Positions 4,076-49,861 of a stretch of 64,000 bases of DNA are shown here, piece by piece. Positions within the stretch are counted from its first letter, which is position 1, and each line of letters opens with the position of its first letter. The notes under the pieces are model-generated. The model was not told where the DNA came from. It made no database searches and saw only the letters and a list, made by a program, of their open reading frames with translations. The translations under genes and the position numbers were made by a program. This stretch comes from Arbacia lixula (taxonomy: Eukaryota; Echinodermata; Echinoidea; Arbacioida; Arbaciidae): assembly GCA_963669155.1 (NCBI GenBank), contig OZ022595.1, positions 3,312,705 through 3,376,704 of the forward strand, read 5' to 3'.

Positions 4076-4133
4076 AATTTGTTCGGCTCGATTTCGACCT
4101 TTTATAATGCCACAATGGGTATCTTGAGCCAGA

Positions 4134-10983: not shown

Positions 10984-11314
10984 GAGTACCCGCTGTGATC
11001 ACCGCTGCTTGCTCTTCCCACATAGTTTAGAACCAGTTGTCTTGACAATAATGCTCAAATGACATCACACTTCGGTACTCTATGGGATTAGCATGTATTA
11101 CATATAGAAGATTTTTGTTAGGGGCCTTACTGTAAGAACAGGTTCACCGTATAGGCGATAGACTCTATTTAATTCACAATAAATACCTTCTGCCAAAATT
11201 GAATTTTGAATCAATGTTTCTGAGGAATTTTGTATGGTGCTGCAAGCACTGCATTAAAGGCTAAATGTTTGCAATTAGGCTAAAATGATGATTTGTCTTT
11301 CTGTTCTCATGCCC

Positions 11315-11825: not shown

Positions 11826-11889
11826 ATTAAGAACAACAAATCACTTCACTCAATGTTCATGCATCATCCAAAATACTAGTTTATCCAGA

Positions 11890-15758: not shown

Positions 15759-15874
15759 ACACTACAGCTCGAAGAAATTGGCACGGGTAAAGGGAAAGGG
15801 AAGAAAGGGAAGGAAAACTGCTCCTTCCCTTTCTTCCCTTTTTTACCTGTGGCAATTCCTTTGAGCTGTAGTGT
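15759..15874. repeat. tight hairpin with purine/pyrimidine arms
   Basis: The left arm acactacagctcgaagaaat then a gggaaagggaagaaaggga run is mirrored by cccttccc, tttcttcccttttttacc and cctttgagctgtagtgt. The arms are about 55 bp with a loop of only a few bases. The reading frames across it (Lys/Gly-rich and Phe/Pro-rich) come from composition. Confidence 0.75.
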
Positions 15875-15913: not shown

Positions 15914-16441
15914 TTAAAGACAGCCAGTCCCTTTTTCAGATCACCACAAAACCATCGAAACATTGGCAAAACATATAGAGAACTGTTAGCAAGCTCTATA
16001 TTCACAATTTGAAATTGATACGCAGTGTAAAATTCAAATAATGCACGTAAACAACGTCTGATTGATAGTCTTTACCTCAGGCTCTTAGCAGTTTGTGCTG
16101 AAATATCTGCTTTATTTATTAATCTGTTTATTAAATTATAAAACGCATTATGAAAAAAAATGTTCTATGGAAGGAATCATCTCCAAAGTTTGGTAGTTAC
16201 TCATAAAATTAGGATTTCACACACGCATAATAACCAAATAGATACTGTAACAAAGACTAATACTTTTTTCGTGGTACGAAAAAAGTCGGTTTGAAATTTA
16301 ACGGCTGAAATTTTTTACATATACAGAAAGCTTCAACATGCTATATTTTTAGAAATGGTCTTGAATCACACTTTCTTCAATTTACGATCGTGATAGACGA
16401 TTTCAAATTTTAAGCTTGCAAAAGGGACGGACAATCTTTAA
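15914..16441 (-). mobile_element. TTAA-flanked MITE, family C, copy 2 (reverse)
   Basis: This is a full reverse-oriented copy of 11315-11825, beginning TTAAAGACAGCCAGTCCC and ending GGGACGGACAATCTTTAA. It keeps the caaagactaatac segment that copy 1 lost in part. Confidence 0.75.
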
Positions 16442-19312: not shown

Positions 19313-20440
19313 CCATAGAAACCAGTAGAAACCAGTAGAGACTGTCTACTGGTTTCTACTGGTCCAGTAGAGTCTACTGGTCTGAAGAGGAACTACGGAA
19401 TCAAACCAGTAGAAACCAGTAGAGGCTAATGTGTTGAAGACCAGTAGAAACCAATAGAAACCAGTGAGATCTAATGGTTTGAGAAGGAGTGTGAAAAAAA
19501 CAAAGTCAAACCAGTAGAAACCACTAGAGACCAGTGGATTCTAATGGTATTGAAGACCAGTAGAAACCATTAGAATCCACTGGTCTCTAATGGTTTCTAC
19601 TGGTTTGATTTTGTTTTTTTCACACTCCTTCTCAAACCACTAGATCTCACTGGTTTCTATTGATTTCTACTGGTCTTCAATACCATTGGAATCCACTGGT
19701 CTCTACTGGTTTCTACTGGTTTGACTTTGTTTTTTTTTTACACTCCTTTTCAAACCATTAGATCTCACTGGTTTCTATTGGTTTCTACTGGTCTTCAATA
19801 CCATTAGAAACGACTGGTCTCTAATGGTTTCAACTGGTTTGACTTTGTTTTTTTCACACTAATAGAAACTAGTGAGATATAATGTTTTGAAAAGGAGTGT
19901 GAAAAATTCAAAGTCAAACCAGGAGAAACCATTACTAATAGAAACTAATGAGATATAATGTTTTGAAAAGGAGTTTGAAAAATTCAAAGTCAAACCAGGA
20001 GAAACCATTAGAGACCAGTGAATTCTACTGGTGGAGACCAGTATAAATCAATAGAAACCAGTAAGACCTAATGGTTTGAAAAGGAGTGTCAAAAATTCAA
20101 AGTCAAACCAGGAGAAACCAATAGAAACCAGTGAGATCTAATGGTTTGAAAAGGAGTGTGAAAAATACAAAGTCAAACCAGTAGAAACCATTAGAGACCA
20201 GTGAATTCTCCTGGTATTGGAGATCAGTAGAAACCAATAGAAACTAGTGAGATATAATGTATTGAAAAGGAGTATGAAAAATACAAAGTCAAACCAGTAG
20301 AAACCAATAGAAACCAGTGAGATCTAATGGTTTGAAAAGGAGTGTGAAAAATACTAAGTCAAACCAGTAGAAACCATTAGAGACCAGTGAATTGGTAATG
20401 GAGACCAGTAGAAACCAATAGAAACCAATATAAATAGAGA
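19313..20440. repeat. CCAGTAGAAACCAGTAG satellite-like array with an internal inversion
   Basis: The unit is about 115 bp: accagtagaaaccattagag, a gaccagtgaattctactgg, an agaaaccaatagaaaccag, tgagatctaatggtttg, then aaaaggagtgtgaaaa. The order is forward to about 19560, reversed from about 19560 to 19860 (tttctactggtttgac text), and forward again to 20440. The reversal gives long hairpins. There is no coding potential. Confidence 0.85.
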
Positions 20441-25573: not shown

Positions 25574-25702
25574 TACTAATCCAAAATTTGGGGATATCGA
25601 TCCCGTTGTGTAGATTGAAATTATTTTCAATTTATTTCAAATTATTTCCAATTATAATTTCAATCAAGACAATGGGATCAATATCTCCTAATTTTGGATT
25701 CC
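25574..25702. repeat. small foldback hairpin
   Basis: aatccaaaatttggggatat plus cgatccc is mirrored by gggatcaatatctcctaatt plus ttggatt, with an AT-rich middle (ttattttcaatttatttc). It lies directly against the polypyrimidine tract. Confidence 0.65.
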
Positions 25703-26350: not shown

Positions 26351-27570
26351 CCTGCCCCTCTCTTATTACAATGGCTATACCCCTCTCGCCATCCTATGTG
26401 CATTTGAATAAAGTGCACCAATTACTAATTTTTCATTAGTGTTCTACCAGCCTGAAGTCGATAAATAGAATGCCATTTGATGGAAAAATCTCTAATCCCT
26501 AATCTTGTGCTAGATTGCAACATAGCAGCTAATATGTCATACAGCATGCTATTTGGTAGTCAGTGTTCATTAGCTGAAATCTATGGTCAAGAAATCCCCA
26601 CACACACTCTTGGGCTAGATGGTATAATAAGTTCAGAAACCAGCATGCTATTTGACAGCTTCTTATCCTATTAGAGACTTTCCCGCACTCTCCACAGCTT
26701 CATGTTCTTTCCCTTTTCTGTCTCTCTCTCTATTTCTCTCTTGGTTTACCAAATACCTAGCCACAAGTGTCATTTGATAGTAATCAAACTAATTGGCTGG
26801 CATGGCATTCCAGCCACAAACATGCATGTCTTCAGCACACTGCCCCTGTCTGTATGTGTACAGCAGTTTGGCAAAGAGATCAAACTGCCTTACATCAGCT
26901 GCAAGGCACTGCCTAATTAATTGCCGTCTTAGTAATTTCTCATAAAGCTGCTTTTGCTAAACTAATGAAATTTTCATTGAAATAAGCAGGTGTGTAGGTC
27001 AGGTCTCTGTGGATGTGTGAGCATGTATGTGTGAAAGTGTGTGTTGTCCTTCTGTACTCTTTGGTGGATAGGTTAGATGCTGTCAGCCACTTCATCACTT
27101 TCACTATCTAGTGAAGATTGTAACACAGTGGGCTGATGTGTGTGCGCGATGTGACCAAATTGCTCAAATTTGGCTTTCCTAGTGGGTAGCATGGCTGTTG
27201 GATATTTATAATCCAAACTACCCAAGTGCATATTAGACTCAGTATATCCCACATGTTGGGGTGAGCCAGAGAAGAAATCAAGAATGATTAGTCTTCTGCA
27301 ACCAGACACGTTTATTTTACAGTTTGCATTAGAATGCCCAACAGCATGGAAGCCAGGCTAAGATGTGAGGGATACCTGAAGGTTGTTATCATCAGTGATT
27401 TAACTACCCACAACAAAGGATTAGGGATACAAGTCGCTGGGCAGAATTGATTTTTTTGGGCAGGGGCTATTGTTTGAATGGATCCCCTCCACTATGCTGT
27501 GCAATATACCCATTGAGGATTATTTTTACAAGGGCACTTTTCCAATTTCCAAGGGCTCTTTATGCATTGT
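26351..27570. other. no gene seen
   Basis: No supported coding region. Two 'cagcatgctatttg' words (26542 and 26641) make a small local duplication. A short dispersed word (aatgcccaacagcatggaag) at 27333 recurs near 61752. Confidence 0.4.
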
Positions 27571-27744
27571 GAAGGTTAAAAGGAAAGTCCACCATGATAT
27601 TAAGATGGTTTGAATAAAAGCAGAAACATGAAAGAAACATATATTAGTGAAGGTTTTGTTACGATCAGTTCACGCCAGAAAGGATCGCACAAAATGATAC
27701 CAATATTTAGTTTATGTGTTCTTTATTATATGGGGTATTTCTCC

Positions 27745-28420
27745 TTTAAAATAAAAAAAAAACTTTCACAAATTTGTACAATGGGTTTCTCACTTAATCT
27801 ACGAATATTATACAAGTGAACGTAAGCTTACGGTGCTGGAGGATACTGAAGTCCAATGGATCCACGGCTCTTGCTGATGGTCCAGTTGATAATCCGATCC
27901 AGTATACCCAAATTATGATCGCAATGTTGATCCCAATGTTGTACACTGAAGAGCAGGTATTCGAGATAGTCAAGTCCAAATAGATGATCCAAGATGGTTA
28001 AATATTAATCCACAGAGCTTTCATGGCTTTCACAGGCAGGATCTCGTAAGCACTATTTAACAGGCAGGTATTTATCCACATTGAGAAAATCAAAACAAAC
28101 TTTCACAAATTTGTACAATGGGTTTCTCACTTAATCTACGAATATTATACAAGTGAACGTAAGCTTACGGTGCTGGAGGATACTGAAGTCCAATGGATCC
28201 ACGGCTCTCGCTGATGGCCCAGTTGATAATTCGATCCAGTATTCCCAAATTATGATCGCAATGTTGATCCCAATGTTGTACACTGAAGAGCAGGTATTCC
28301 AGATAGTCAAGTCCAAATAGATGATCCAAGATGGTCAAATATTAATCCACAGAGCTTTCACGGCTTTCACCGGCAGGATCTCGTAAGCACTATCTAACAG
28401 GCAGGTATTTATCCATGTAG
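27745..28420. repeat. tandem duplication inside the solo LTR
   Basis: The stretch from aaactttcacaaatttgtac through ctcgtaagcacta occurs twice, near 27758-28060 and 28095-28400, with few differences. The other LTR copies have it once, so the duplication arose in this copy. Confidence 0.8.
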
Positions 28421-28720
28421 AGAAAATCCTTGTATGAATCCACAGGTGTGTATTGAGCCAGGGTCACAACAAAAATCTTAGATGCAGGTTACTCTTACCA
28501 CAGGTGACTGGAGCAGGATGCTATTAAGCTCTCTAATGCAGGTTATCAAATGTACATGACTGGAGCTAGGATGATATGTTAACTCTGAGCTCCTATTCAA
28601 GCAACTCGTATATATACTACAATCTGTACATTCTAGAAGGTTCTATTATCTGTGCTTCTAGAAATTTCGCAATACATCTAGTAAGTTCTACATTGTACCT
28701 ATGTTTGTAAACATGACAAT

Positions 28721-28897
28721 ATACAAATGATTCGCAGGTATGAGTGGGTCGGTAGGAATTGTTTGCACAAGGTAACTATGGAACTGTTAAACCCACGAGG
28801 CGAAGCCGAGTGGGTTTAGACGAGTTTCCATAGTTACCGCGTGCAAACAATTCCACCGACTCACGAAATAAACCTGCGTATCATCTGTTTTATAGAA
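28721..28897. repeat. foldback at the 3' edge of the Crypton
   Basis: The left arm (tacaaatgattcgcaggt, gggtcggtaggaattgttt, ggtaactatggaac) is mirrored by gtttccatagttaccgcg, tgcaaacaattccaccgac and cctgcgtatcatctgttt. The arms are about 75 bp with a short loop (cccacgaggcgaagccgag region). It may be part of the Crypton end or a small MITE lodged at the boundary. Confidence 0.75.
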
Positions 28898-28944
28898 TGG
28901 GCATTGTCACAAACCCAAAAATCCAAAAAAAATAAAAAATTAAA

Positions 28945-29080
28945 AACTTTACCGGACGCATGAAATTATTTTACCGGACGCATGAAATTTTTTACCGGAC
29001 GCATGAAATTTTTTACCGGACGCATGAAATTTTTTTACCGGACGCATGATTTTTTTTACCAGCCGCATGATACCAAATGA
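28945..29080 (+). repeat. tandem array of TTTTACCGGACGCATGAAA
   Basis: A roughly 23-bp unit with the fixed core accggacgcatga occurs five times, plus a variant last unit (accagccgcatga). It sits in the 3' untranslated side of the Crypton. Confidence 0.9.
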
Positions 29081-29468
29081 CTCACTGCTTAATGTCTGGA
29101 CTGAAAGGAACTTTTTATAAATGAACAAAACAATAGAAAACTGAAAATCCTGAGGGGTTTTGATACATTTTTGTCAGAATTTCAGATTTTCAGTTTTCTA
29201 TGGGATTTATGTGTGGTTGTAACTAAAATTTAGAAACATACCTTTTTTTGGCAGACTCTGATTGTATGCTTTCCCGATGATTGCCAAATTGAAGAACATT
29301 TTGCAAATCTAGTCTATGTACATGTACAGTTCCATCAACGACTTCAAAACGTAAGACGACATAAACTTTTGCTTCCAGAACGAACACAGTTGAAAGTCAA
29401 GGAAAATGTAAAACACTAACAGTTGAAATCCAAACAGCAACACATTTACATGGAGTTCTTCCTCAGTG

Positions 29469-30793
29469 TTATTGTTTGTTGTTATGGATGTTTACCACAC
29501 AGTTGCTTATGTTGAAGATGTTACTGGAGGTACGTGTGGTATTACTCTGCGATGAAAGAGACAAAGACAGAGGAGACCGTGCAGGTTGAAGGGCTGCTAA
29601 TGGTAGTGGCGTAGATGGTGATGATGATGCTGTCTGAGCACTTGGTTGTTCACTGACAAGAATACCATCAATAATTGTCTGTTGTTCACTGCTGAGTTTG
29701 CTGACTTGTAGCTCTACGGGAATTGATACCGGCATTGCTGCAGGAGTAGTAGTTACAGATGAGGTTGACGGCTCGTCAAGGCTAGAGTCGTGATCATGAT
29801 TGACATCCGACTGACGGTTAACATTAACGTTATACAGATGTTGTCGGATCTTACCGCTCATTTCCTTCTTTCTCTCTGCACTTGTCTTTGTGTAGATTTT
29901 GATGGAGCTTTCACTCTTATGACCGCTGACGGACATAATGTCCCTGGACTCAAACCCGGACTGGTCTAATGTAGTTACACACGTTGCCCTCAGGCAATGA
30001 TTCGTGTACACCTTACTACATTTCGCATTGGTAGAGATGATCTTCATCTTGTTTGACAGTGTGTTAATACCGACCGGACTGTTCTGATACCACGGGTCAC
30101 TGTCATTCGACGGCCGCTTTGGTTTTGGTTTCTGCCAAAACCAGGGACATGCAGGGTTTAGTTTAGACAAGTACTTTTCAAATGTTTTGACAGGGCATCT
30201 TTCGGTGTTCGGAATTTCATACATCAAGCCGGCTCCGGTAGCTTCATCGTCATTCTCTCTGTGATTTTTTGTGAGATGATCACGCTTTTGAACATACTTC
30301 ACTCCATCATCATCAACACAAACAGAGAAATCTGATGGCTTGAACATTGTACATTTTCTCTCCCTCGATTGCAGAAATATGTTAGCAAGTCAATAAATAC
30401 CTTGTTCTGAAGTCCTTCTGGTCTGTTGCAATCCAACTGGGTCTGTATCTTCTCCATGTCAACATTAGAAATTGGATTCTTATGCTTTGTACTTCCTAAT
30501 CCTTCCCGCTTCAGTTTGACCAAAACTGCTTTGAACATTCGAACACTCTGGGGGAAAAGGGCATTCTTACAGATGTCGATGTTGAAATTGTCCAAATAGT
30601 GACGCTGGATCCCGTACCGAATGTACTGCATTGATTTCTTCGTGTACGAAGAACCATCACTCTTACGCAGCGATGCATACAAAGCAGACAGCAGCGAGTC
30701 CAAATCCGCGGTGTTCTCCTTAGTAACGTCGGTCAAAATTGCATCTTTTTGCTTCAGTCTCGCAAAGCACTCCAGTTTGAAGAATCCAAATTT
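29469..30793 (-). pseudogene. Crypton tyrosine recombinase (DUF3504-type), main part
   Basis: This is the catalytic part of a Crypton recombinase, which moves the transposon by site-specific recombination in the nucleus. The N-terminal helical domain (30793-30400) contains SYTKKSMQYIRYGIQRHYL and ends in the first catalytic arginine block, CNRGREN. The second block gives KPSDFSV, CPVKTFEKYLSKLNPACPWF, HCLR (His-x-x-Arg, near 29990), SGHKSESSIKIY (His, and the Tyr nucleophile near 29893), followed by a Ser/Thr/Pro-rich low-complexity tail. Relatives captured by animal hosts include KIAA1958, QRICH1 and ZMYM proteins. A single frameshift near 30345, just after GREN, separates the two blocks, so the copy is probably inactive. 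All four catalytic positions are still visible. Confidence 0.8.
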
Positions 30794-30900
30794 AATAGAG
30801 AATTAAACAAGAACTTACCTGTTTGAAGTTTAATTGCTATTTTATTAGCAATACGTAGGGAGGGAGTACATGAGAGCCCGCTCGCGTGCGCGCAGATCAT
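30794..30900. repeat. DIRS left inverted terminus
   Basis: The outer 79 bases (aatagagaattaaacaagaa onwards to gggagggagtacatg) are repeated exactly in the internal complementary region. The inner 34 bases (tacatgagagcccgctcgcg and on) are inverted at the right terminus. Confidence 0.9.
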
Positions 30901-31003
30901 TCTTCAAAGCTGTAGTGACCACTGTCAGCGTGATAAAGTAGAAATTAGGAACTACCTGTATAGAACTTCTCAAAACTGAAGAAAAAAGGGTGGGAGTGGA
31001 GGG

Positions 31004-31116
31004 CATGTACTCCCTCCCTACGTATTGCTAATAAAATAGCAATTAAACTTCAAACAGGTAAGTTCTTGTTTAATTCTCTATTTTATCACGCAATCCTTGT
31101 GAGTGATTACATGAGA
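31004..31116. repeat. DIRS internal complementary region
   Basis: Its first 79 bases are the reverse complement of the left terminus. The last 37 (attttatcacgcaatccttg to catgaga) are the reverse complement of the right terminus. This region is the template used by the family to complete the ends through a circular intermediate. Confidence 0.9.
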
Positions 31117-31205
31117 TTTTAAAGCACAGTGGTCACGAGGCTAAGAGTAGAAAACACTGCCACAATAGTATGATACAAGTATTAGTCATACTGACCATTA
31201 AGACA

Positions 31206-32301
31206 TCAGTGTTCCAATACTGTGCGGGAGAAACTGGTACAATCTGGTTCCACTGGCTTCAAGTAGAACTTTTGAAAAGTTTTAGCATTGGCCCAGCCAG
31301 CTTGTCTCAAGATGTCAGACACTGGCAATTGTTTTTCCTGGGCTGAAGAGAGATTTGTAGTGATTAATGTCAATACCAGACTTCTCCATAATGGTTCTAA
31401 TCCACCGTGAAATTGTTGCTGTTGTAGCCCTCCTGTGGGGCTTCTGGTAGGTGATGAACAGATGTCTCTCTGCACCTCTTAAAGGGTTAGTGACGGTAAT
31501 ATAACGTTTCAGATATCGTACTACACAAAGTCGCTTATCTGCAGGAAATGATTTCAAGAAGACGACGGTCCCGACATTTCCTGGTCTACTTTGCTTGAGC
31601 AATTTATCTACGTGGAACTCCACTGCACTGTCTGTCAGGCTCATCTTGTCCAAATGAAGTTTGTGGATGGTCTGCACTCTCTGTGCTGAAGTCAAGGCCA
31701 ACAACATGCTCAGTTTTAATGTCAACAAGCTTAAAGGGAGTTTGTGTGCTGGAGACAACACTCGTAAATAATCCAGCACAATATTGACATTCCAAATACG
31801 GCTATAACGTGGTGTCGGAGTTCTCAGCTTGAATACTCCTTTGAGATATCTGCTAATTAAAGGATGCGTTCCAACAGTGTAGTTGCATTCCTCCAAACAT
31901 ATAAAAGTTGCCAATGCACTTCTTGCTACATTCATGGCACTATAGCTAGCTTTATTTCTGTAAAACAGTTCATTAAAAAATTCCAACAAATTCTCCACTT
32001 TTGTGCGAGTCCAGGAAATTTTACGTTTCACACAAAACAGTTTCCACTTCTTTAAATAGACATTATACTGTCGCTTTGTTGAGTCTGTCAGCGATGCACC
32101 TAGAATCTCCACAGTTTCTGTAGTTAGTCCTTGCTGGGAGTAGAAACCACGCCAAGCCTGCAACATAACAGAGAAAGCTTTGTTAGAGGATGAGGTACAC
32201 CCGAGACAGGTTGTGTGAGCAAACATGGGCTTTTTGGCAGGGTGTAAGGTTTCTCCAGTAACAGTTCTTGTAGGAGGGGAAACCAGGCTTGTGTAGGCCA
32301 A
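31206..32301 (-). mobile_element. DIRS tyrosine recombinase part
   Basis: This part provides the recombinase that inserts the circular DNA copy. Visible blocks are LTDSTKRQYNVYLKKWKLFC (N-terminal core-binding domain), ALTSAQRVQTIHKL (first catalytic arginine), a block with PHRRATTATISRWI, and AGWANAKTFQKFYLKP carrying the tyrosine nucleophile. This is the recombinase type of DIRS1-like elements and replaces the integrase of LTR retrotransposons. It overlaps the end of the RT part, as is usual in the family. It is a fossil with about one break. Confidence 0.85.
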
Positions 32302-34037
32302 TTTGGCACAATCAACAACCCCTCAGCTTTATCTGATTTTATTTTTTGCAAACATTTAGATACCAAATTGAAGGGTGGGAATGCATAGAAATTTAATGTT
32401 CCCCAATCCAAAGTGAAGGCATCCACTGCCCATGCACTGGGGTCTGGTTTCCACGAAACATACACTGGCAGTTGGTTGTTTAGTCTAGATGCAAAGAGAT
32501 CAATATCTGGTGTGCCAAAGAATTCTGTTATATTTGAAAATATGTCTCTGTCTAGCATCCATTCAGTGTTATCACTGAATTTTCTCGACATGTGGTCTGC
32601 TTCAACATTGAGCGCCCCTGGGAGGTGAGCTGCAGTAATCCATATATTACGCTTACTGCACCATTCCCATATTTTGGACGCCATTTCATTGCACATTTCT
32701 GATTTTGTGCCCCCTAGATTATTCAAATAACTGACAGAAGTGGTGTTGTCAATTCTCACCAGTATGTGACAATTTCTCAAATCTGCACAATATGCACGTA
32801 GCCCAAACCACGCAGCCAACATTTCGAGATAGTTTATTTTGTTTTGTTTAGCAATTTCAAGTTCATGAGCATTCCACCTGCCACCAGTGCAAGAGTCAAG
32901 ATCAGTGGCACCCCAACCCTGTCCGCTTGCATCTGTGCGAATTTCTTTGGTTGGTTTTTCTCTAATTATTGGTTTGAAGGCAGAAGAGATATTTTTAATC
33001 CACCAGTCAAGCTCATGTTTTGCAGTTTCTGAAATTGTCATCGGTCTATCGAAATGTCCACAATTCTTTTTCAACGCTGCAATTTTCTCAGTTTCAAGGC
33101 ACCTGTAATGCAGTGGCCCATATTGGACTGCGGGAAGAGTTGCTATTAACTTTCCAATCACTCTAGCAACCTCTCTAATTGTTGGTTTGTGGTTATCTTG
33201 AAGCTGTTTACATACATCTTTAATTTCACAGACTTTTCTATCTGGGAGTGTAACCACCATTTTGTTGGTATTCAAATTAAATCCAAGGAATTCTAATTCC
33301 TGAGATGGTTCGAGGATAGACTTGTCAGGGTGTATGATAAACCCCAAGTCTGACAGAAGTGATGTAGTAGCTTTAACAGCAAATTCGCAATCGGTTTTGC
33401 TATTTGCTATTATTACGTTGTCATCAAGATATGCACAAACCAAATGTCCCTCTTGCCTAAGGTGTGCGAGTACTGGTTTCAGGATTTTTGTGAACAATCT
33501 AGGGGCACTACTTAGCCCATTGGGCAATGATTTATACTGCCATAATTGCCCTTCCCACTCAAATCTAAGGTATTTTCTATAGTCTGCATGAATGGGCACT
33601 GTGTAATACGCATCACGTAAATCTACTGAAGCCATGTAATTTCCCCTAGAAAGGAGTGTAAGTACAGAATAGATGTTGTCCATTTTGAAGTGGCGATAGG
33701 TGACGCTTTTATTTAATTCTGACAGGTCTAGAATCAGGCGTATACCACCATTCTTTTTCATTCTGGTAAATATGTTAGAAATAAATTCCCCTTTTTCATG
33801 AGTGCAACGCTCTATGACATTTTTCTGTTCGAGATCCAAAATTGTGTCCCGAATTTTCCCTGTTTCTTCCGCATTGCGTTTGTACGGGAAGAGGGGTTTT
33901 TCTCGCTTGGGTGGGAATTTATCTGGATCAAATTCGAGTTTGTATCCAGTGATAGCCTCAATGATGAGGGGATCTGAAGTTAATTTTTCCCAATTTCGTA
34001 AAAATGGCTTCAGACGACCACCGACCGTATTACGCAA
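32124..34037 (-). mobile_element. DIRS reverse transcriptase-RNase H-methyltransferase-like ORF
   Basis: This is one open frame of 637 residues. The reverse transcriptase spans about residues 55-255, with GGIRLILDLSELNK, SVDLRDAYYTVPIH and the YLDD catalytic box at 203-206. RNase H spans about 365-485, with IRTDASGQGWGATD, the E in NYLEMLA, RIDNTT and the EADHMSR end. Residues 505-580 (FFGTPDIDLFASRLN, VSWKPDP, YAFPPF) resemble the Dam-like methyltransferase region that DIRS1-like elements carry. It copies element RNA into DNA. The frame looks open throughout, in line with the young age of the insertion. Confidence 0.88.
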
Positions 34038-34105
34038 GTGCCCATGAATATTGAATGCACCTACCTCTTCAAAGGTGCTCTGGCTCGGTGTGGGTTGTTC
34101 GTGGG

Positions 34106-35392
34106 CTACTGTTTTCCCAGTCCTTGGCCCCGTGGGCGACGACTGAGATTCTGTTGCTTCTGTTCGGCTCTGGCAGACATGGGAGTGTAAGAGTGAGCTG
34201 GGGGATCTCTGTGTCTGCTGTTTGAGTGGTGCTTGTCTAAAAAAGGCCTGTTTGCACCTCCTGCTCCCGGTCTGCGTCCAGTAGGGAACCAGCCTGCTGC
34301 CTTAGCTCTCTGTTTAAAGGTGTCAGGCTGTCGTCGGTATGGATGAAACGACTGGGGGCGATGGTGTGATTTCATGACACCAGCAGTAGCCTTCCTCTGG
34401 TCCTGCATTTCCTTCACCTGTTTCCCCAGGTCGTCACCAAACAGGAATTTTGTAACCTTATTGGACGGCTTGCAAAGCCGCTGAAAATCAGAGTTGAGGT
34501 CAGGCTTGATCAAGTCTTTGCGTAGGCAGTTTATGTTGAAATTTGCATCACCCAAGAGAGCTAGTGTGTCAGATAGCTCTTCGGTCATGTTAGCTGGTTC
34601 CAAAATTTGTGCGAGGGCACACACACCCTTTGTAAGAGATTTCTGTATGCACTGCAATCTCAGATCTCTGCCGCGTACAGCCGATGGCAGATTCTCCCAA
34701 ATAGATGGGTTCACTTTGGGAACATCTAGTATTCCACAGTTTGCCGGGCACGGGTATTTGTCGGCCGTTTCCTCCATTGATTTCTCAGCTAATTTTTGCC
34801 CCATCATGTAGCTGATTGTCTTAGCTATTTTGTCATCAATGGGTTTACCAGTCGAGGAGGGGGCTGCATACTTAGCTGCAAACTCAGGCACTTCTTTTAC
34901 TTCCTCCTCAGCTGACTTCTCTAGATCATAATTAGGTTCAGCTTGGCAGACTTCATCATCAGAATCCACCATATCTGCTCTGTCACCGCAATCAGTGTCA
35001 TTAGCACTAAGACCGACAGTCTTATTGGCGATAGAAGTAGCAGCATTAACGTTGGTGCTCGTTGCTGCTGGCATGGTTGGTAAACTATCTTTCACGACCT
35101 GAGTTAAACTTGTTAAGAGCAACTCCAGCTTGTCCATTCTTGTGTGGACGTCTCTGTCTTCCTTCGGCTCCGCCTTGGAAGAACCACTCGAATCTGTCTT
35201 AGACTTAGTCGAGTTTGATTTTAGCTGATTCGAGCTCGGCTTCGCCTTACTCGTATCTGACTTCGATGTACTGCTCAGCGGTTTCTTTCCCGGTGCGGTC
35301 CCCGTGCCGGTCGGGGTAGGTGTTGGTGAAGAGCCGATCTTCTCACGCCCGCCGCGGGACGGAGAATTGCGATCTTTGCTCTTACCTTCCAT
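34106..35392 (-). mobile_element. DIRS gag-like ORF
   Basis: This frame of 428 residues is the first on the element's coding strand, starting about 170 bases inside the right terminus. The N-terminal 90 residues are Ser/Thr/Lys/Pro-rich (KDRNSPSRGGREKIGSSPTP). A central helical block contains RLQCIQKSLTKGVCALAQIL and FQRLCKPSNKVTKFLFGDDL, a phrase typical of DIRS gag proteins. The C-terminus is basic and His/Arg/Pro-rich. It is the presumed particle protein. There is no zinc knuckle, as is usual in the family. It looks open. Confidence 0.8.
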
Positions 35393-35561
35393 TTCGCTAC
35401 GGACTTACGGTTCCAAAAAATAAGTCACCAAAGTTGTCACGATGCGATTAAACGCTCGAAAAAACCCCGTTTGGGTCCAGTAGGCGACGAATTATGAAAG
35501 AATTTTGAAGATTCTGCGCTGCAAAATAAGTCGTGTCGAAACACAAAATGGCGCGAACGAT

Positions 35562-35623
35562 ATGATCTGCGCGCACGCGAGCGGGCTCTCATGTAATCAC
35601 TCACAAGGATTGCGTGATAAAAT
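35562..35623. repeat. DIRS right inverted terminus
   Basis: It contains the shared core (atgatctgcgcgcacgcgag and on) followed by the outer segment gtaatcactcacaaggattg cgtgataaaat, whose complement is in the internal region. Confidence 0.9.
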
Positions 35624-35725
35624 TGCTTTTCTTGTGCTACCTGCATCGGCATTTTGTAGTAATGCGTCCAATTCTCCGTCCGTGAGAAGTTCAAATCGAA
35701 CTCCGGCTTCGGTCGCGGTCGCCAT
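35621..35725 (-). pseudogene. Crypton recombinase, N-terminal segment
   Basis: A minus-strand ATG at 35725 opens a 35-codon frame (MATATEAGVRFELLTDGELD, then ALLQNADAGSTRKAI) that runs into the DIRS edge. The frame continues in the same phase on the other side of the DIRS insert (from 30793, KFGFFKLECFARLKQKD), matching the usual N-terminal layout of DUF3504 proteins, where a STKKA-type word precedes the helical domain. The DIRS therefore landed inside the coding region near codon 35. A related N-terminus is seen in the relic near 41300-41390. Confidence 0.75.
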
Positions 35726-36445
35726 TTTTCTTGTTTTTATCGTTTCGGAAACGATACCGATGCCAATACCGATACCGATAGCGCACTAAAGTGGGTATCG
35801 TTCATGCATCAGTAAAAATAATCGTCTGCACGAATTTGGCTCTCAACCAATCAGATTGCAGAGATTCTGACGCCCATTCTATAATCAATATTGACCTGAC
35901 CCAGATTACACTGATGAGTCATCACTGGCATACTACAGTCAGTGCCTCCTTTATTATGCTAATGAGTCTCAGCTACCTGTAACATTCTTTCATGTAAATA
36001 GCCCGGGTAAATAGTACCTGGCAGATCCTTCCACAGGCAGTACATTGCGCAATGTTTATTTCACCAGTGAGGAATTTCACAAGCACATAGAGTGCAGCTT
36101 ATTTAATGGCTATATGCATGGCTTAGACAAATTTATAACAGTTTGATGTAAATCAATCTTGGAATAAGAAGGTCACAATTGTAGAAAGTTTTGATTTTGT
36201 GACGTCACATGCGAGATGCTCTCCCACACATGTATGTTGTGTACAATTTTTCGTGAAAATGTCAATTTTCTCAAAAGGATATATGCACTATTTTATCTGG
36301 GCATTTGATGCATCATTAGCAGCATGTTTTTACACACATACCTCAATGAAAAAAAAAATCCTTCATCGAAAACGGGAAAAGAGCAATGAATGGAATCATA
36401 CAGCATACAATGTGAGAGCACCTCACATGTGACATACCCTTGGAT

Positions 36446-37463: not shown

Positions 37464-37895
37464 AAGGTTTGACGAAAATCCATTAACGGATATAAAAGTT
37501 ATGATCTTATGAAATATCAATTTTGTGACGTCACATGTGAGGTACACTCCCATATGTTGTGTGCAGTATAATTCCCTTTTCCGTTTTTTATCAACAGAAT
37601 GATTTCTTTTTCATACACGTACAGTGTGTGTGTAAAAACATACTATTAACAATATGTTAAAGGATGCATATATCTTTTTGAGAAAGTGCACATTTTAACA
37701 AAACGATGTACCCAACATGGGAGAGCACCTTGCACATGATGTCACAAAACCAAAACTTTAAAAGATCATTTCTTTCTTTCTTTCTTTCTTTCTTTCTTAT
37801 CCTTTGATGGATTTTTGTCAAATATTCACTTATATGTTTCTCCCACGTGTCTGCTTTTATTGGATACCAACTTAATTTCAGGGTGAACTATTCAT
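37464..37895. mobile_element. TTAA-flanked foldback MITE, family A, copy
   Basis: It contains aaaggtttgacgaaaatcc, gtgacgtcacatgtgaggta, gggagagcaccttgcacatg, and a right end with a cagggtgaactattcattta A terminus. The left terminus is shortened. A (ttct)n microsatellite at 37768-37798 sits in its right half. Confidence 0.7.
37768..37798 (+). repeat. (TTTC)n microsatellite
   Basis: tttctttctttctttctttc continues for about 30 bases within the family A MITE. Confidence 0.9.
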
Positions 37896-38727
37896 TTAAT
37901 GTTCCCATAAGAGAAATCATGTAGAAATTTGCTTGAGGCAAAGACAAAAAGGAGATGAGAAGTAAAGGGGAGAGTCACATTTCTTTCCTACACTGTCTAA
38001 AGAGGAACAAGGAATCTCATTCCTGTCATGATTATTCAGCCTAAAGCTGTGATCACTACATGTATCAACTCAGAAATGCGGCTAAGCAGACAATATCTGC
38101 TTTTCAAAAATATCTTTAATGGAAACAGAACCAGGATTGTCTATGTGGAATGTAGAAACAAGCGCTTAGAAAATTACTCATTTAAACAAATAGAATTTTT
38201 GCCTTATAAGAGGATATTGAATTCTGCCGTGATATTGTCTGCAATCACTGGAAAAGAGCTACCTTCAAGAAGCCAAATTTCCAGCACCTTCCACCTTATC
38301 AAGCACATTATGCACTGTTTTAAGTGTGTGCATTAGGACAATGCTATTTGAATGAAAATAGCACTGATTTGTGTCAGCAAATTAGAGCTTAAAATGTACC
38401 TAATAGTTCAAGATTTTGTGATGAGGGTCTAATTTTAATTGAACAAAAGATTGTGAGTGAAAAGTTGGTGAAAGAATGTGAGTGAAGCGTGTATGAATAT
38501 AATTAGCAGAAATTCAATTAGAGTGACACTGCGAAAATATGCATCTGCACAGGATTTTTAGGCACATGAGTGTGAAGGGCTTCTGTAAGAGAGAAGAGGA
38601 AGTGAGGAATCCGGTCCCGTAAGTTAGACAAGTTTGATAGAGGAAACCTCAACTCGCTACACAGATACAGTCAAAGTCTGCACCTAATGTGTCTTCTAAT
38701 ATTTCAAATTGAATTATTGCTCTTCAG
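37896..38727. other. no gene seen
   Basis: A 102-codon plus-strand frame (38028-38336) has no recognisable domain, no clear splice borders and no skew in composition. I treat it as chance. Confidence 0.3.
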
Positions 38728-38776: not shown

Positions 38777-39655
38777 GTAAAGTCTGATAGATGGGAAGAA
38801 TGTCAAATGTATAGAAGTTCTCCACTATGGCAGGACGCTGTCTTTGTCAATTGCATTAGGTGGATGACTGGATTGAAAGCCTAAGTTAAGTGTTTAGAAG
38901 GGGTACAGAATTTAATGAATTGAAAGAAACTTGCTAGTTGCAGCTTTTGTAAGGAACCAATAATCAGAACAAAGTGGGTTTAATTACAATTTAATCAATG
39001 ATTCAACAGTCTTAAAATGGTACAGTTTAATTGCTAAGTTAAGCATTAACTGAATATGTAACTTTTTAAGCATGTGAATAAGGATAACCCATCCCATGAG
39101 TCGATAAAAAAGTGATTCTATAAACAAAATAAATCAAGATTACAAGTAGTAAGAGGGAGAGGAGGCAGGGAATGAAAGGGTACTGTTAGGCAATAATGAT
39201 ATTGTAAGAGTCTGCCTGGTTTATTTGGTAGCACGGCCTTTCCAGGGCAGATTCTTCACTGAAATAATATACACTCCCGCTTAAAAGAATTGGCAGTGAT
39301 TGGTACCGCTACCCGAGGGATTTGGCAAGGATAAGTTCAGGACATAACCGCAGTTCGTGATTGAACTGTTAGCGTCCCTATAGCTTCCCTTAACCTTCCC
39401 TAAACCTTTCCCTAAACCTTCCTGAAACCCTTCCCAAAGCTGTGGAATACTTTGTTTAATACTTTGTTTAAGCGCGTGTTCATCGCCAGTTCTTCAGACC
39501 ATGCACGCATTGGTTCCTAACCAATAGCTTTCCAAAGCTAGCCTCCAAGCTGTGTGTATACTGGTAACACACACAACATTATGTGCATGTGTGTGTGTGT
39601 ATGTGTATAATTCATGCATACGATATCAATATTATGAAGCAATTTCTTTCAATTT
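38777..39655. other. no gene seen; degenerate CCTTAA/CCCTAAA run
   Basis: Positions 39378-39440 hold a degenerate run (ccttaaccttccctaaacct, ttccctaaaccttcc). A (tg)n microsatellite lies at 39588-39604. No gene is seen. Confidence 0.45.
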
Positions 39656-40560
39656 AGAAAAGTATCGTTCCTCCGTAAATATAGTAAAACATTATCGTTC
39701 ATTTAAACGAAGCATCATTCCTCCGTAAAAAAAATAAAGCATTATCGTTCATACTGAGCAAAGTCGCATTCTTTTGTGAGGAGAGAAAGGCATTTGTCCT
39801 TCATTTAAACAAAGTCTCATTCCTTCTTAAATTAGTAAAGCATTATCTTTTATTTTAACAAAGTCTCTTTCCTCCGTGAGTACAGTAAAGCATTATTTTT
39901 TTATCTAAACAAAGTGCCATTCCTCCGCAAATAAAGTAAAGCATTATCGTTTATTTTAATAAAGTATCATTCCTCCGTAAATATAGTAAAGCAGTATCGT
40001 TCATATTGAGCAAAGTCGTATTCTTTCATGAGGACAGGAAAGTAACAAAGTATCGTTCGGAAAAGAGTAAAGCATTATCGATCATTTTTAACAAAGTCTC
40101 ATTCTTCCGTAAATAGAATAAAGCATTATCTTTCCTCTAAACAAAGTGTCATTCCTCCGTAAAAATAATATTTAAAGCATAATTTTTCATGCTCCGCCTC
40201 GCGATTGTGGAATTCTCTCCCAGCCTCAATTTGTTGCATCACTAGTATTTTCTTTGTTCAGGTCAAAATTAAAAACACATCTCATGGATCAGGCATATTC
40301 AACATACATGTACTTCTTAAATTGTAATTAGACTTAATCTAATGTTTATCATTAAGTTTTGTTTAGTTTTCTTTATACATGTAATTGTAAAGCGCTTTGA
40401 TATATATCCATTAGGAAAAGCGCTATAGAATTAAAAGTTATTGTTATTATTATTAATTTTTCAGTTAAGCAAAGTACTATATTCCTCCGTAAATCTAGAT
40501 TATCATTATCATTCATTAACAAAGCATCATTCCTCCGTAAAGAGTAAAGAATTATTGTTT
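39656..40560 (+). repeat. minisatellite of ~58-bp units with ATTCCTCCGTAAA core
   Basis: There are about twelve units of the form aaagtatcattcctccgtaa, then atatagtaaagcattatcgt, then tcattttaac. The attcctccgtaa core is steady and the flanks drift. Two units carry a different phrase (gcaaagtcgtattctttc atgagga). The array is split at 40180-40463 by a LINE end. Confidence 0.88.
40190..40453 (+). mobile_element. LINE 3' end inserted in the minisatellite
   Basis: It carries the C-terminal words of a non-LTR retrotransposon ORF2 (RLWNSLPASI, then in a neighbouring frame FSLFRSKLKTHLMDQA, so one frameshift). A 3' tail follows, with an agcgctttgata / aagcgctatagaa hairpin and a (tta)n end typical of L2/CR1-like LINEs. 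It is flanked by the 10-bp duplication taatttttca (40180-40189 and 40454-40463), so it is a true 5'-truncated insertion into the array. Confidence 0.85.
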
Positions 40561-40984
40561 ATTTTTAATGTGTTCAATTTTATGTGTGACAGTTATCAAT
40601 TAGAAATGATTCAATCTTGATTACTACTATGCTTGCATTTAAATATTGATAAAAACCACAAACTATATGTAGGATTATGTTTTGCACTGTGTATTTACAG
40701 ATATTTTAATGGTTTTCTAACAAAATTGCCTTATGTGTTCATATCGTTTCCATGGCAACAGCCATTTTTAGGCATGATCGTGAACTCTAATGACTTAGAT
40801 TATAATCAGAATCAACTGGGCACGTTAATAATTGTATACCTAGACACTGATTTTGTATTTTTATGTCACCATATGAGAAATATATGGCAATTTCTTATAT
40901 TTCTGTAATTTCAATTTTTTTGGCACCATGGTGTTGTCATAGCAACAGCGCTCTTGTGCATGACTGTTACACTTAAAAAAACCT
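40561..40984. other. no gene seen
   Basis: This AT-rich sequence has a 91-codon plus-strand frame (40633-40908) without motif. The word gtttccatggcaacagcc near 40747 and ggtgttgtcatagcaacagc near 40932 are loosely related X-box-like words; no function is claimed. Confidence 0.3.
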
Positions 40985-41542
40985 CAATCATCAAATGATA
41001 GACAAGTAATTTCGGTACTTATCTTTTCAATCTTAGGGTTTGTTTCCTCACTGAGGGGCTCCTTTGCTTCACTGCAAACACTGGAACTGAAGAAGACGGA
41101 TCTGTCCGTATGACCAACATGTTTGGTAGTCAATTTAAAAAGTTTGGACGATGGCGCGCTGGTGGTACGCTTACTTCACTGTTGTTTGAGTTTTTTTCCG
41201 ATATAGAATCTAGGACTGTGGCAACAAAGTCTTGACTCACCAGTGCTGGGTTGTTGTTAGGCTTGCACATTGGTATCCATATATCAGTCTTATATGCCAG
41301 AATATACGGTACTGACAGCGTCTGAATCGTCCAAAATTTGTTTCAATTCTTCATCTAATTTTATCAGATTTTCTTGAGATTCGTGGGTGCCGCCATTAGC
41401 GTAAGCAACATTGGTATTGATCATATTCATTCTCGGTATCGCGATATCGTGTTGATATTGTGTGCTGCCAGTAAAAAAAAATTACACGGTAATTACGGGT
41501 AATTAACCAATGAGATTGCAGAGATTCTGACACCCATTCTAT
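40985..41542 (-). pseudogene. older Crypton relic (N-terminal part and right terminus)
   Basis: The right edge (gattctgacacccattctat at 41523-41542, followed by AAT) and the preceding accaatgagattgcagagat match the terminus of the Crypton at 35850-35882. On the minus strand, 41300-41390 reads HESQENLIKLDEELKQILDD then SDAVST, which parallels LTDGELDALLQNADAGST of the intact copy. Downstream text (KPNNNPALVSQDFVATVLDS) is in another frame with stops nearby. No recombinase core is left. It is a degraded, differently diverged Crypton copy. The left limit is uncertain. Confidence 0.5.
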
Positions 41543-43333
41543 AATACTTACTGAACCCTTATCTTAGTTACAATTGCAGCAAAGAATAAAGAGAAATAGT
41601 CTAGGGGCCATATTCTTGAAAACGTTACTAAGCCTAGTTAGTTGCTTAAGTACATTCAACTGCATGCATTTTTAGTAACCAACTAGGCTAGAAAGCTAGA
41701 TTGCACAACTGCAGACAGGGAACTATTAGTAGCATCTATAGAAAGTTTTAGATTGCCAGGACAGTGACAGTGACAATGACTGTGGCTGTGACTGGCTGCT
41801 GCTCTTGATTCAACAATATGATGCATCTGCGGTTGCATTTCCACCTCAATGTTAAAATAGGCCATGCAGATTCCATGCCACAGTCATAGTCACAGCCACA
41901 TGTGGCAATTTGAATCTCTCTAATGTCATACTTGGAAAAGACTCACAATGTGGACCTCATTATGTGGCAGCCCACATGAAGAATTGTGTTTTCCCAGAAA
42001 CTGGCAGCATGGGCCAGAGGTCATGTTTGCAGCTGGTATTTACCCTTTCCATCTTAGCCTGCCTCCCAGGCTATTTGGTATGTCTAATCCCAAGTATATT
42101 ATTGTGACAAAGCTACCATTGGCTTGGTAGCTACGTCGGAGTGCCGATTGCCTTGCCACCCCTCGAGTCGCACAATGAAATAAATGAATTGACACCACAT
42201 CTTTGGTCCAAAACAAGCTCCTTTTGGCTTTATTCAAAATATATGGAAGATAGCGACTTCATGGTGATGCTCAGCAGTAGGCCCGTACTCGGCCTCTCCT
42301 CCCAATCAACTGCCATACCTGCTGCGATTGCCCTTCATTTATACAACTCTGGGCACCTCCAAAATGGCAATACTTTAAAGAGAAAGTAAATATTCTCCGC
42401 TTGCAAAACAGCAATTTGAGAATTGGAATCCTACATCAAGAAATAGTTAAGGAATGGCGACTGTAGAGTCAACACATCTTGTCCCCTCTGTCTCCTCTTG
42501 ACTAAACATTGCTTAAAGGAAATACATGAGACACCACTTTCATCTGATCAACATGTGGGGTGGTATCACATGGCCTATGTTACCCCTTGTCTGGGAATAT
42601 ACTGTACAATAGTTTATAAAAGAAAGTACTTTTAGCCAATCAGCTCTGTGTCTGGATACAGTTATCCTACCTTATTGGTATATGTTCATGTACTGTCTGG
42701 TATAGTGCCATAGCATCTGCTAGTATCATCTGATGTAGGTTAGTCAAATATGTTTTGACATGTGGTCAAAACACCTGTGTCATGTCAAACCGGTACATTC
42801 ACAATGGGGCTTTTGCTCCTTACTCTTTACAATGAGGAACGGTTCCTACCAGCAGCAAAGGTGGAGTTCACATGTAAAATCTAATTATTTTAATGAGACA
42901 TGTTTGCATGTCACAATTATGAACAGGTCTGGCTGCAGTAGACTAATCAGTCACTTGTTCTTTAGGGGGCCCGGCTGAACATTAATGGGTGAACAGGGAA
43001 ACAATGATAAGTCATGTCAAAACAAGGCACAAATGTGCAATGTTATAAGTTTGGATTTGAAATGTCCAACATCCTGGCATGAAGGCTGCTTCCATCTATG
43101 AAATCTCACTGAAGAACACTGAGCAAAGGATGATCGAAACTCAAGAGCATGTTGTGTGGAAAAAATATGTGCTGGTATTTCACTTCAATCTTTTGTGAAT
43201 ACAAAATAAGGGAGCAAGTTTCTCATACCCTTTTCTTTTGCAAGAGAAAAAAGAAGGATTGGGAGTGAGTGGCTTCATGAGGAGGCAAGGGGTCTACAGA
43301 ATAGACTGTTTTCGTAATGTATGCACAAGACCT
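41543..43333. other. no gene seen; small foldbacks
   Basis: A foldback of about 70 bp lies at 41622-41692 (gttactaagcctagttagtt against aaccaactaggct). An inverted gacagtgacagtgac / gtcatagtcacagccac pair lies at 41758-41902, and a short hairpin (gctaccattggcttggtagc) at 42109-42128. Short dispersed words (ggtctggctgcagtagac at 42926) recur near 61623. No supported gene is seen, apart from a very weak splice-bounded segment at 41998-42035. Confidence 0.4.
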
Positions 43334-43526: not shown

Positions 43527-43861
43527 CAATTTCTTTGCAGTTGAATTCGTCCAAAAAGTGATTTCTACATCTCCATTTGCGCCCGTTTCGGCCCTAGCCC
43601 CGATACTGCTGCGGCAAGCTACAGGTATAGCCGTGACTAGCCGCGTACGCTGCCGTGACTTATGAACTATCGCCCACAATGCATGGGTCGCGGGTACAAT
43701 ACACTTGATTCACTTTTTTTCTTTGAACTAATTCGGACAATACATCTATCAGATTTACACAGCTGGCATATAACAATAAGTAAGATTGTCAGGAGTTCAG
43801 TTTCTCAGGGGAAAGTTATTTTTTTTAGAAGACAGTTCGGCAATAATCGGCGATAATCTCG

Positions 43862-44287
43862 GTGAACTACTGCTGCCACGGGATATGCACGGGGCTCTCG
43901 GTATTTGCAGCATGGCCTAAAATGCAAGGTGAAGATTTCTTCCATTCCCGAAACAAACAAACAAACAAAAAAAAACGCGATAAGTGCCAGCTCTGGATCA
44001 AGGCATGCGGAAGAAAAGACTTGACAACAGACAAAATCAGGAAAGACAGCTACATTTGCTCCAAGTGTTTTTTTACGGGAATGGCGGGCTGCGACAACAG
44101 ATCACCCAACCCCAACACCTGCCGCCGCACCGCAGCCTCGCAGTGCGAAACAAGTAAGACAGCGAAAGCCGTGCGGCCAGCTCCCCGAGAGAGAGCTAGT
44201 AGCCATCGACTCGCTTCCCAAAAGACAGAAAGTTACCGAACAATCTTCCAGTTTGATGAACACATAGTGACATACCCCATCGTGTAA
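43862..44287 (+). CDS. THAP-like zinc-finger reading frame
   Basis: This 141-codon frame contains KKKRDKCQLWIKACGRKDLT then IRKDSYICSKCFF, which resembles the middle and end of a THAP-type C2CH zinc finger (W-I-x-A-C-x-R ... R-V-C-S-x-H-F). The final His is Cys here. The upstream YCCHGIC could be the first cysteine pair. A donor-like cgaaacaa/gtaagac occurs at about 44152, so the exon may end there. THAP domains bind DNA in host proteins and in P-element-like transposases. It could be a host exon, a domesticated piece or a relic. The stretch is CpG-richer than its surroundings. Confidence 0.4.
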   Translation: MNYCCHGICTGLSVFAAWPKMQGEDFFHSRNKQTNKKKRDKCQLWIKACGRKDLTTDKIRKDSYICSKCFFTGMAGCDNRSPNPNTCRRTAASQCETSKTAKAVRPAPRERASSHRLASQKTESYRTIFQFDEHIVTYPIV

Positions 44288-48140: not shown

Positions 48141-49021
48141 GCGCCTCCTCCACCTTGGATGGAAGTACTGGGCGAATGCATGGCAAGGGAGCGCTCGCTA
48201 TACATCTTATAGAAAATTGCTATCAATGGCAGCGGGATGCATAGTGGGATGCAATCACTATTACACACTGCACGCATTATACACCAGTTGCGTGTGCACA
48301 ACAACACACTGCCACTGTACATACAGCTCTGTGCACACTGCATGCACCTTGCGCAAATAATCCTTTCAGCACACGAGTGACAAGAGTATGGAAAGCCCCA
48401 TGTCACAAAATCCCCAAAACGGAACGTTCCGTTTTTTAAGGCTATAAAAACTTTAAAAATGGGACAATTCCATTAAAAACGATATTGTTGGCAAGTCTAA
48501 TATTGGATGAGTGGGAGTCACTATTAACTAGACAATGGCTAGTACTGCTAATGAAAAGGGTGAGTGCAATCCTCTCATAGTCATGTTACATCAGAATGGA
48601 TGGGCTAGTAAGACGGCCTCTCGTTAGAAACAAAAGCTTAACTGATGGATGCTACACATTGTGCATACTGCATACCCATTCTGAAATGAGATTAATTTCT
48701 GCCTGACAGTCAGAATAGATGGGCAAGTATTGTGAGGAATATAAAGTAGCTAGACAAAATGATGCTACATATAGTACACACCCAATCTGAATGACATTAA
48801 ACTTGGACTCAATAATCAGCACAGAATAGATAAAGTCTATTTTGAGGAATATAGCTAGAATACTGATGCTACAGAATACACACACCCAATCTGAATGAGG
48901 ACAAACTTGCACTCGATATCAAAATAGGAGAATACATGAAGGTGGGCAAGTAAAAGAGTTTGATATGAGGATAGCTAGACAACTGATGCTACACATAGTA
49001 CACACACACAATCTGCTCGAG
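48141..49021. other. no gene seen; repeated acacaatctg words
   Basis: The phrase gatgctacacatagtacaca (and variants catatagtacacacccaatc, agaatacacacacccaatct) recurs every 90-120 bases from 48650 to 49010. It looks like a worn tandem repeat. No gene is seen. Confidence 0.5.
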
Positions 49022-49121
49022 CTTAAAGATTGTCCGTCCCTTTTGCAAGCTTAAATTTTGAAATCGTCTATCACGATGCAACTGATGCTACACATAGTAC
49101 ACACACACAATCTGCTCGAGC
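48978..49121 (+). repeat. direct duplication across the left edge of a family C MITE
   Basis: About 100 bp, from caactgatgctacacatag to atcgtctatcacgatg, occurs twice in a row. The second run continues into the full MITE. The duplication spans flank and MITE start, so it happened after the MITE had inserted. Confidence 0.85.
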
Positions 49122-49646
49122 TTAAAGATTGTCCGTCCCTTTTGCAAGCTTAAATTTTGAAATCGTCTATCACGATCGTAAATTAAAGAAAGTGTGATTC
49201 AAGACCATTTCTAAAAATATAGCATGTTGAAGCTTTCTGTATATGTAAAAATTTCAGCCATTAAATTTCAAACCGACTTTTTTCGTACTACGAAAAAAGT
49301 ATTAGTCTTTGTTACAGTATCTATGTGGTTATTATGCGTGTGTGAAATTCTAATTTTATGAGAAACTACCAAATATTGGAGATGATTCCTTCCATAGAAC
49401 AATTTGTTTCATAATGCGTTTTATAATTTAATAAACAGATTAATCAATCAAGCAGACATTTCAACACAAACTGCTAAGAGCCTGAGGTATAGACTATTAA
49501 TCAGACGTTGTTTACGTGCATTATTTGAATTTTACACAACGTATCAGTTTCAAATTGTGAATATAGAGCTTGCTAATACTTCTCTATGTTTTGCCAATGT
49601 TTCGATGGTTTTGTGGTGATCTGAAAAAGGGACTGGCTGTCTTTAA
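49122..49646 (+). mobile_element. TTAA-flanked MITE, family C, copy 3
   Basis: This is the same unit as 11315-11825 and 15914-16441, starting TTAAAGATTGTCCGTCCC and ending GGCTGTCTTTAA. Its duplicated start lies at 49023-49077. Confidence 0.78.
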
Positions 49647-49861
49647 ACTTTTGCTTGACAGATAGTCAAGGTTCTACAACACACCAGGAAAGGCTTGAAC
49701 TCTCAATCCCAGCTATCTGTCTGCTCATCAACACATAGCCTTGAATGCAAGCTGTGGAATACATGGACACCCTGCCTACAATAAATGGACACAGAATGAG
49801 CACTGCTGTCACAACCGAGTCTCCACACCTAGACCAAAGATAAGCACATGGAGTGCCAGCA

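Follow-up and report, generated by a model that had tools for sequence, protein, structure and literature searches.

A nest of four kinds of mobile elements in Arbacia lixula: MITE, Gypsy-type solo LTR, Crypton and DIRS1-like retrotransposon

Mobile elements at the locus

We analyzed a stretch of 64,000 nucleotides of Arbacia lixula DNA (GenBank assembly GCA_963669155.1, contig OZ022595.1, positions 3,312,705 to 3,376,704 of the forward strand), called the window below; all coordinates are those of the window. In the region 27572-36445, four kinds of mobile elements are stacked by insertion: a foldback miniature inverted-repeat transposable element (MITE), a Gypsy-type solo long terminal repeat (LTR), a Crypton and a DIRS1-like retrotransposon. 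Empty-site alignments at two junctions and the end structure of the DIRS element indicated that the nest is real, and it very probably arose by serial insertion at four levels. When the region was compared with the whole window by BLAST, the LTR match had an E value of 5.3e-140 and the right MITE part 3.6e-28, well apart from chance. The two outer levels and the insert in the LTR are as follows.

27568-27656, plus strand: left part of the split foldback MITE, up to and including the first GTTT at 27653-27656 (BLAST, junction alignment)
27657-28720, minus strand: left part of the Gypsy-type solo LTR, beginning TGTTACG (85% to LTR 1012-1454)
27755-28091 and 28092-28428: tandem duplication of 337 bp inside the nested LTR (324 of 337 positions identical)
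28721-35885, minus strand: whole insert in the LTR (hairpin, Crypton and DIRS), between AAT at 28718-28720 and AAT at 35883-35885 (empty-site alignment to LTR 1013-1950)
35883-36140, minus strand: right part of the same solo LTR, ending TAACA (79% to LTR 1672-1916, empty-site alignment)
36141-36433, plus strand: MITE resuming at the second GTTT, 36141-36144 (BLAST to 6662-6813 and other copies, multiple alignment)

Insertion of the LTR into the MITE

The left MITE part matched four stretches in three other copies in the window: 37825-37907 (reverse), 6540-6619, 58872-58946 and 59244-59311 (reverse). Family copies with inverted arms are present at 6539-7022, 37464-37907 and 58872-59320. The sequences flanking the LTR are GAAGGTTT on the left and GTTTGATG on the right. 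When these flanks were joined at one GTTT, they aligned unbroken through the MITE copy at 6539 (GAAGGTTTGACG). The joined flanks also aligned through the copy near 37.8 kb with lower identity. The copy near 58.9 kb aligned only up to GAAGGTTT, with a gap after it. These results bore out the first-pass annotation in its claim that a MITE had been split by an LTR with duplication of GTTT.

One point speaks against taking the host as a complete MITE: the split copy is without its right arm, and in the multiple alignment similarity stops near 36433. Position 36445, to which the nest had been extended, is accordingly not a MITE end. No target duplication of the MITE itself was identified in the MITE copies of the window.

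Insertion of the Crypton-bearing insert into the LTR

In the BLAST search against the window, the LTR halves matched 1012-1454, 1489-1674 and 1672-1916. The flanks of the insert, when joined, read AACATGACAATCAATATTGACC, and the LTR copy at 1013-1950 reads AACATAACAATCAATATTGACC; the alignment was gapless at the junction (AACAATCAATATTG). The earlier claim that the LTR was split by a Crypton-bearing insert was thus confirmed at AAT. Another LTR copy at 13.2-13.8 kb (near 13.4 kb) is also without the insert, but it is diverged at the site. The AAT common to both LTR borders is either a duplication or a recombination core.

After the LTR copy at 1013-1950 comes CTTTCCCCCATGG, which is purine-rich on the minus strand, and minus-strand matches to RVT_1 (1.9e-24) and RT_RNaseH_2 (1.5e-32) were found by Pfam within 2437-3401. 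Because this copy adjoins the purine-rich tract and the reverse transcriptase (RT)/RNaseH pieces, the LTR was assigned to Gypsy. The nested LTR is a lone LTR, has a target duplication and matches the LTR of a Gypsy element, as a Gypsy solo LTR should. The stretch 1013-4183 itself is a Gypsy-type remnant on the minus strand, consisting of the LTR, the purine-rich tract and broken RT/RNaseH pieces.

A chimeric assembly, in which unrelated repeats were misjoined, could in principle produce such a structure in a region as rich in repeats as this one. The junctions are base-exact, GTTT and AAT stand on both sides and the empty sites match, and we regard a misassembly as hardly credible.

Crypton recombinase

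The following features belong to the Crypton body.

28948-29070, no strand assigned: 5.8 copies of a 21-bp tandem repeat in the 3' region of the Crypton
29469-30796, minus strand: tyrosine-recombinase (YR) coding sequence of the Crypton, 3' of the DIRS element (Pfam, reading frames)
35624-35725, minus strand: putative N terminus (34 codons) of the Crypton protein, across the DIRS element from the preceding feature (open frame when the flanks are joined at one AAT)

The coding sequence matched DUF3504 (1.7e-8, 35.1 bits, cut-off 29.7) and Phage_integrase (5.5e-7, 29.9 bits, cut-off 27.1) in Pfam, and QRICH1 (6.7e-6) below the curated cut-off. Its frame is broken inside 30299-30389, away from the DIRS element. 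The translated protein contains HCLR, GHKS and IKIY, motifs at catalytic positions that fit a catalytic tyrosine recombinase. The NCBIfam model recomb_XerA_Arch gave 1.2e-6 and 28.3 bits, its cut-off being 220. A search of solved structures with the protein returned four sequences up to E 1, the best being XerA (E 0.017). No matches were obtained in Rfam and tRNA searches. The element is a Crypton by its recombinase, and this recombinase is related to DUF3504 as in CryptonA, a label that we use provisionally.

DIRS1-like element inside the insert

The DIRS element begins and ends with ATT in its own orientation, and its parts are listed below.

30794-35623, minus strand: DIRS1-like retrotransposon
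30794-30900, minus strand: right inverted terminal repeat with extension
31004-31116, no strand assigned: internal complementary region (79/79 to 30794-30872, 37/37 to 35587-35623)
31206-32322, minus strand: DIRS YR, frame broken in the C-terminal part (Phage_integrase 4.9e-4, below the curated cut-off)
32124-34301, minus strand: RT open reading frame (ORF), 725 codons stop to stop (Pfam RVT_1 6.3e-21)
34106-35404, minus strand: ORF of 432 codons stop to stop, called gag by position only
35562-35623, minus strand: left inverted terminal repeat

The inverted terminal repeats and the internal complementary region overlap by a 3-bp circular junction at 31080-31082, which is AAT in the orientation of the element, as in DIRS1-like elements. 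The zero differences over the 113 complementary positions are compatible with a recent insertion, although this length is too short to date it. Pfam gave no match for the gag-position ORF and none for RNaseH or methyltransferase (MT) in the element. In a three-frame reading, no HxxR box was seen between the C-terminal YR pieces, which lie in different frames. Its lack alone is not decisive, because the HSTR motif is given for only 13 of 28 DIRS elements in the part of PMC3266345 that was consulted.

The edges of the DIRS element read AATTTAAT / AGAG and GATAAAAT / TGCT. Only AAT is common to them, and apart from this 3-bp junction no target duplication is apparent. The element lies inside the Crypton-bearing insert, because the right border of the insert lies beyond it.

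The DIRS element likely interrupts the Crypton reading frame. Joining the Crypton flanks at one AAT gave an open frame, MATATEAG...STRKAIKFGFF, in which the 34-codon piece starts with ATG and continues in frame. Three results weigh against this interpretation. Frame continuity at the site is weak evidence, as one of the two wrong offsets is also stop-free; addition of the N-terminal piece did not lengthen the QRICH1 match (profile positions 38-104 with it, 38-106 without it); and no intact Crypton copy for an empty-site comparison was found in the window. An alternative is that the DIRS element sits within the Crypton but outside its reading frame, so that the 34-codon piece is open by chance and the real start is elsewhere. 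Besides the weak frame test, this would agree with the shortness of the piece and its lack of a Pfam match. A similar peptide in a second Crypton-like relic of the window (8 of 16 residues identical, E 1.5) is at chance level, as an unrelated place gave the same E value. Given the ATG and the in-frame junction at a single AAT, we consider this alternative improbable and retain the interruption of the frame as the likely reading. The first-pass annotation had the Crypton frame stop and resume at the DIRS edges; the in-frame junction agrees with this, but the stop-free wrong offset leaves it likely only. The frame is also broken away from these edges, inside 30299-30389.

Crypton termini and the hairpin at the left end

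Three features mark the ends of the Crypton.

28723-28888, no strand assigned: imperfect palindrome (hairpin) of 166 bp between the LTR and the left Crypton arm (self-inverse BLAST 78.6% over 173 columns with gaps)
28890-28902, plus strand: left inverted repeat TTATAGAATGGGC, just inside the hairpin, with the 11-bp arm ATAGAATGGGC at 28892-28902 (exact 13-bp match to the right border)
35872-35884, minus strand: inverted repeat of the right end, one base short of the LTR border, with its arm at 35872-35882

An inverted repeat as long or longer was obtained in 1 of 5000 first-order Markov simulations (250-base left against 60-base right stretches). Of 20000 13-mers drawn at random from the window, none was matched exactly in inverted orientation within a 250-base stretch lying equally far away. 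At the right end, a 41-bp terminal block (35845-35885) is common with 41505-41545 at 95% identity. The second, diverged Crypton-like relic ends at 41545 with this block and is followed by different DNA; its coding similarity to the Crypton is at chance level, as given above. In the relic, neither the 3' region of the Crypton nor the hairpin gave more than matches of 7-13 bases, and the left end of the relic was not found. The arm motifs occur at three sites in the whole window: 28890, 35874 and 41534.

The hairpin, whose center is GAGGCGAAGCCGAG, has only 62 of 166 positions self-complementary without gaps, its arms differing by indels. As DNA, 28715-28895 folded with -59.3 kcal/mol (z -13.8), and 0 of 200 shuffles were as stable. 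A candidate 4-bp target site duplication, TATA, is found at 28720-28723 and 28891-28894. We therefore consider the hairpin to be probably a separate foldback insertion, the fifth in the nest, although the left TATA overlaps the first base of the palindrome, which counts against it. The hairpin could also be the integral left terminus of the Crypton, with the inverted repeat at 28890 subterminal; the recombinase might then use it as folded single-stranded DNA. The hairpin directly adjoins the LTR at AAT, without intervening LTR sequence, is very stable and has no other copy in the window, all of which would suit an integral terminus. Even with the hairpin as terminus, the ends would remain partly symmetric next to AAT, at 6 of the first 9 positions and at 7 of 20, which also tells against a separate insertion. 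Against an integral terminus, the exact 13-bp inverted repeat stands at the right border, while its left copy is set in by about 170 bp, and the left AAT is directly followed by ATA, the triplet with which the displaced arm begins. TATA on both sides, with the overlap mentioned, and the frequency of self-inverse stretches elsewhere in the window point the same way. We regard an integral hairpin as rather unlikely and prefer a separate insertion. The insert in the LTR had been described as a Crypton; the Crypton recombinase is present in it, but its first ~170 bp are hairpin and not Crypton coding DNA.

If the hairpin is a later insertion, the Crypton is bounded by AAT-ATAGAATGGGC and GCCCATTCTAT-AAT, and in its excised circle AAT would be enclosed by a perfect inverted repeat of 11 bp. 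We tentatively propose, as a possibility that falls short of a probable one, that animal Cryptons have a recombination site in which 11-bp inverted arms (GCCCATTCTAT / ATAGAATGGGC) surround a 3-bp AAT core matching the target. According to the consulted part of PMC3212892, the inverted repeats used by tyrosine recombinases are typically 11-13 bp long, with a spacer of 6-8 bp. The 3-bp core is shorter than this spacer, though equal in length to the DIRS junction, and the symmetric site is deduced from one left end and two right ends; both points weaken the proposal. If it is true, the AAT core is identical in length and sequence to the DIRS1-like junction of the nest, which would tie the integration chemistry of Crypton and DIRS together.

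AAT is the insertion triplet of both tyrosine-recombinase elements in the nest (28718-28720, 35883-35885, 30794-30796, 35621-35623). Large self-inverse stretches of the window are located at 60301-60934, 55917-56234, 7205-7550, 25578-25700 and 15759-15874.

We also searched contigs of viruses and of prokaryote genomes, collections described as other than animal DNA, so that absence from them says little. The Crypton protein had 11 pattern matches in the viral and 92 in the prokaryote contigs with no tblastn relative in either. The hairpin core had 0 matches in each. The viral contigs gave no pattern match for the DIRS RT and 0 matches for the terminal pattern.

Order and dating of the insertions

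The insertion order that follows is MITE, LTR/Gypsy, Crypton and DIRS, with the hairpin probably inserted after the Crypton. The MITE/LTR and LTR/Crypton junctions were established against uninterrupted copies; the DIRS/Crypton junction is deduced from the DIRS ends (ATT/ATT, circular junction AAT). The comparison proposed earlier, with MITE 6539-7022 and LTR 1013-1950, succeeded: both copies read through the insertion sites and the inserts are absent from them.

In the proposed course of events, a Gypsy element would have first struck the foldback MITE with duplication of the 4-bp GTTT, to be later reduced to a solo LTR. This reduction could have taken place before or after the entry of the Crypton. 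The LTR would next have received the Crypton, most likely through tyrosine-recombinase exchange of a circular form with the target at the common AAT. A DIRS1-like circle may have entered the Crypton afterwards, again by tyrosine-recombinase exchange at AAT. The circular intermediates of both elements are postulated by analogy with published models.

The four levels, the element classes and their order given in the first-pass annotation held, while the splitting of the Crypton reading frame by DIRS is likely only. Its strict age order likewise stands for MITE, LTR, Crypton and DIRS, but not for the solo-LTR step, which may precede or follow the Crypton. The suggestion that the nest allows dating of Crypton activity had to be given up. 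The nest LTR and LTR 1013-1950 have the same base at 779 of 891 aligned positions and differ at 112, with 138 gap columns in addition. Because this difference is the divergence between family copies and not an insertion date, it yields no absolute date for the nest. Absolute dating was ruled out, as there is no clock, and the Crypton insertion is bracketed only: it is later than the LTR insertion and earlier than DIRS.

Other repeats in the window

An unclassified repeat of about 530 bp is present in three copies at 92-95% identity (11314-11826, 15914-16441 and 49121-49647). An exact 98-bp direct duplication, with its units one base apart, lies at 48980-49176 at the edge of one of these copies. 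Satellite-like arrays occupy 19403-20430 and 39637-40565; both contain direct repeats, and the first also inverted ones. An open frame at 43847-44287 showed a weak THAP-domain match (9.6e-4, below the cut-off). Together with the DUF3504-type Crypton, the DIRS1-like element and the Gypsy-type RT, this match would point to animal DNA.

Comparison with known systems

Like Gypsy solo LTRs, the nested LTR has TG...CA ends, a short target duplication and kinship to the LTR linked to Gypsy RT/RNaseH in the window; unlike them, it carries the 337-bp internal tandem duplication. The DIRS element resembles DIRS1-like elements, as far as they are described in the consulted part of PMC3266345, in its inverted terminal repeats, its internal complementary region with a 3-bp overlap, its ATT/ATT ends and AAT junction as in the SkoDIRS1 row, and its RT ORF followed by a YR ORF. 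It differs in that the YR of the nest copy is frame-broken and its HxxR box is not readable.

The Crypton agrees with CryptonA of animals, as covered by the consulted sections of PMC3212892 (Kojima & Jurka 2011), in having a single DUF3504-related tyrosine recombinase with no further C-terminal domain by Pfam, and in that other transposable elements are inserted in Crypton copies (Table 2). Animal Cryptons are reported there to have no terminal repeats, in contrast to the 13-bp inverted repeat of the nest Crypton, which lies at the border on the right and is set in by ~170 bp on the left; this trait is a reported absence and not a defining feature. Our search did not extend to Repbase and most subscription journals, so inverted repeats of animal Cryptons may already be in print.

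The stacking had been called unusual, which does not agree with the literature. Nesting is called common in plant LTR retrotransposons in the consulted part of PMC6911290, and transposable elements inserted in Crypton copies are tabulated in Table 2 and section 8 of PMC3212892; for these reasons the depth of the nest alone is unsurprising. The nest is ordinary in kind, one more case of a transposable element in a transposable element, and the Crypton termini are a modest, testable lead. According to the consulted part of PMC3212892, the boundaries of Cryptons are hard to characterize. Here the LTR provides an exact empty site for the Crypton, so that the ends of the insert are fixed to within three bases, and the nest provides a specific candidate sequence for the recombination site of an animal Crypton, which other copies can bear out or refute.

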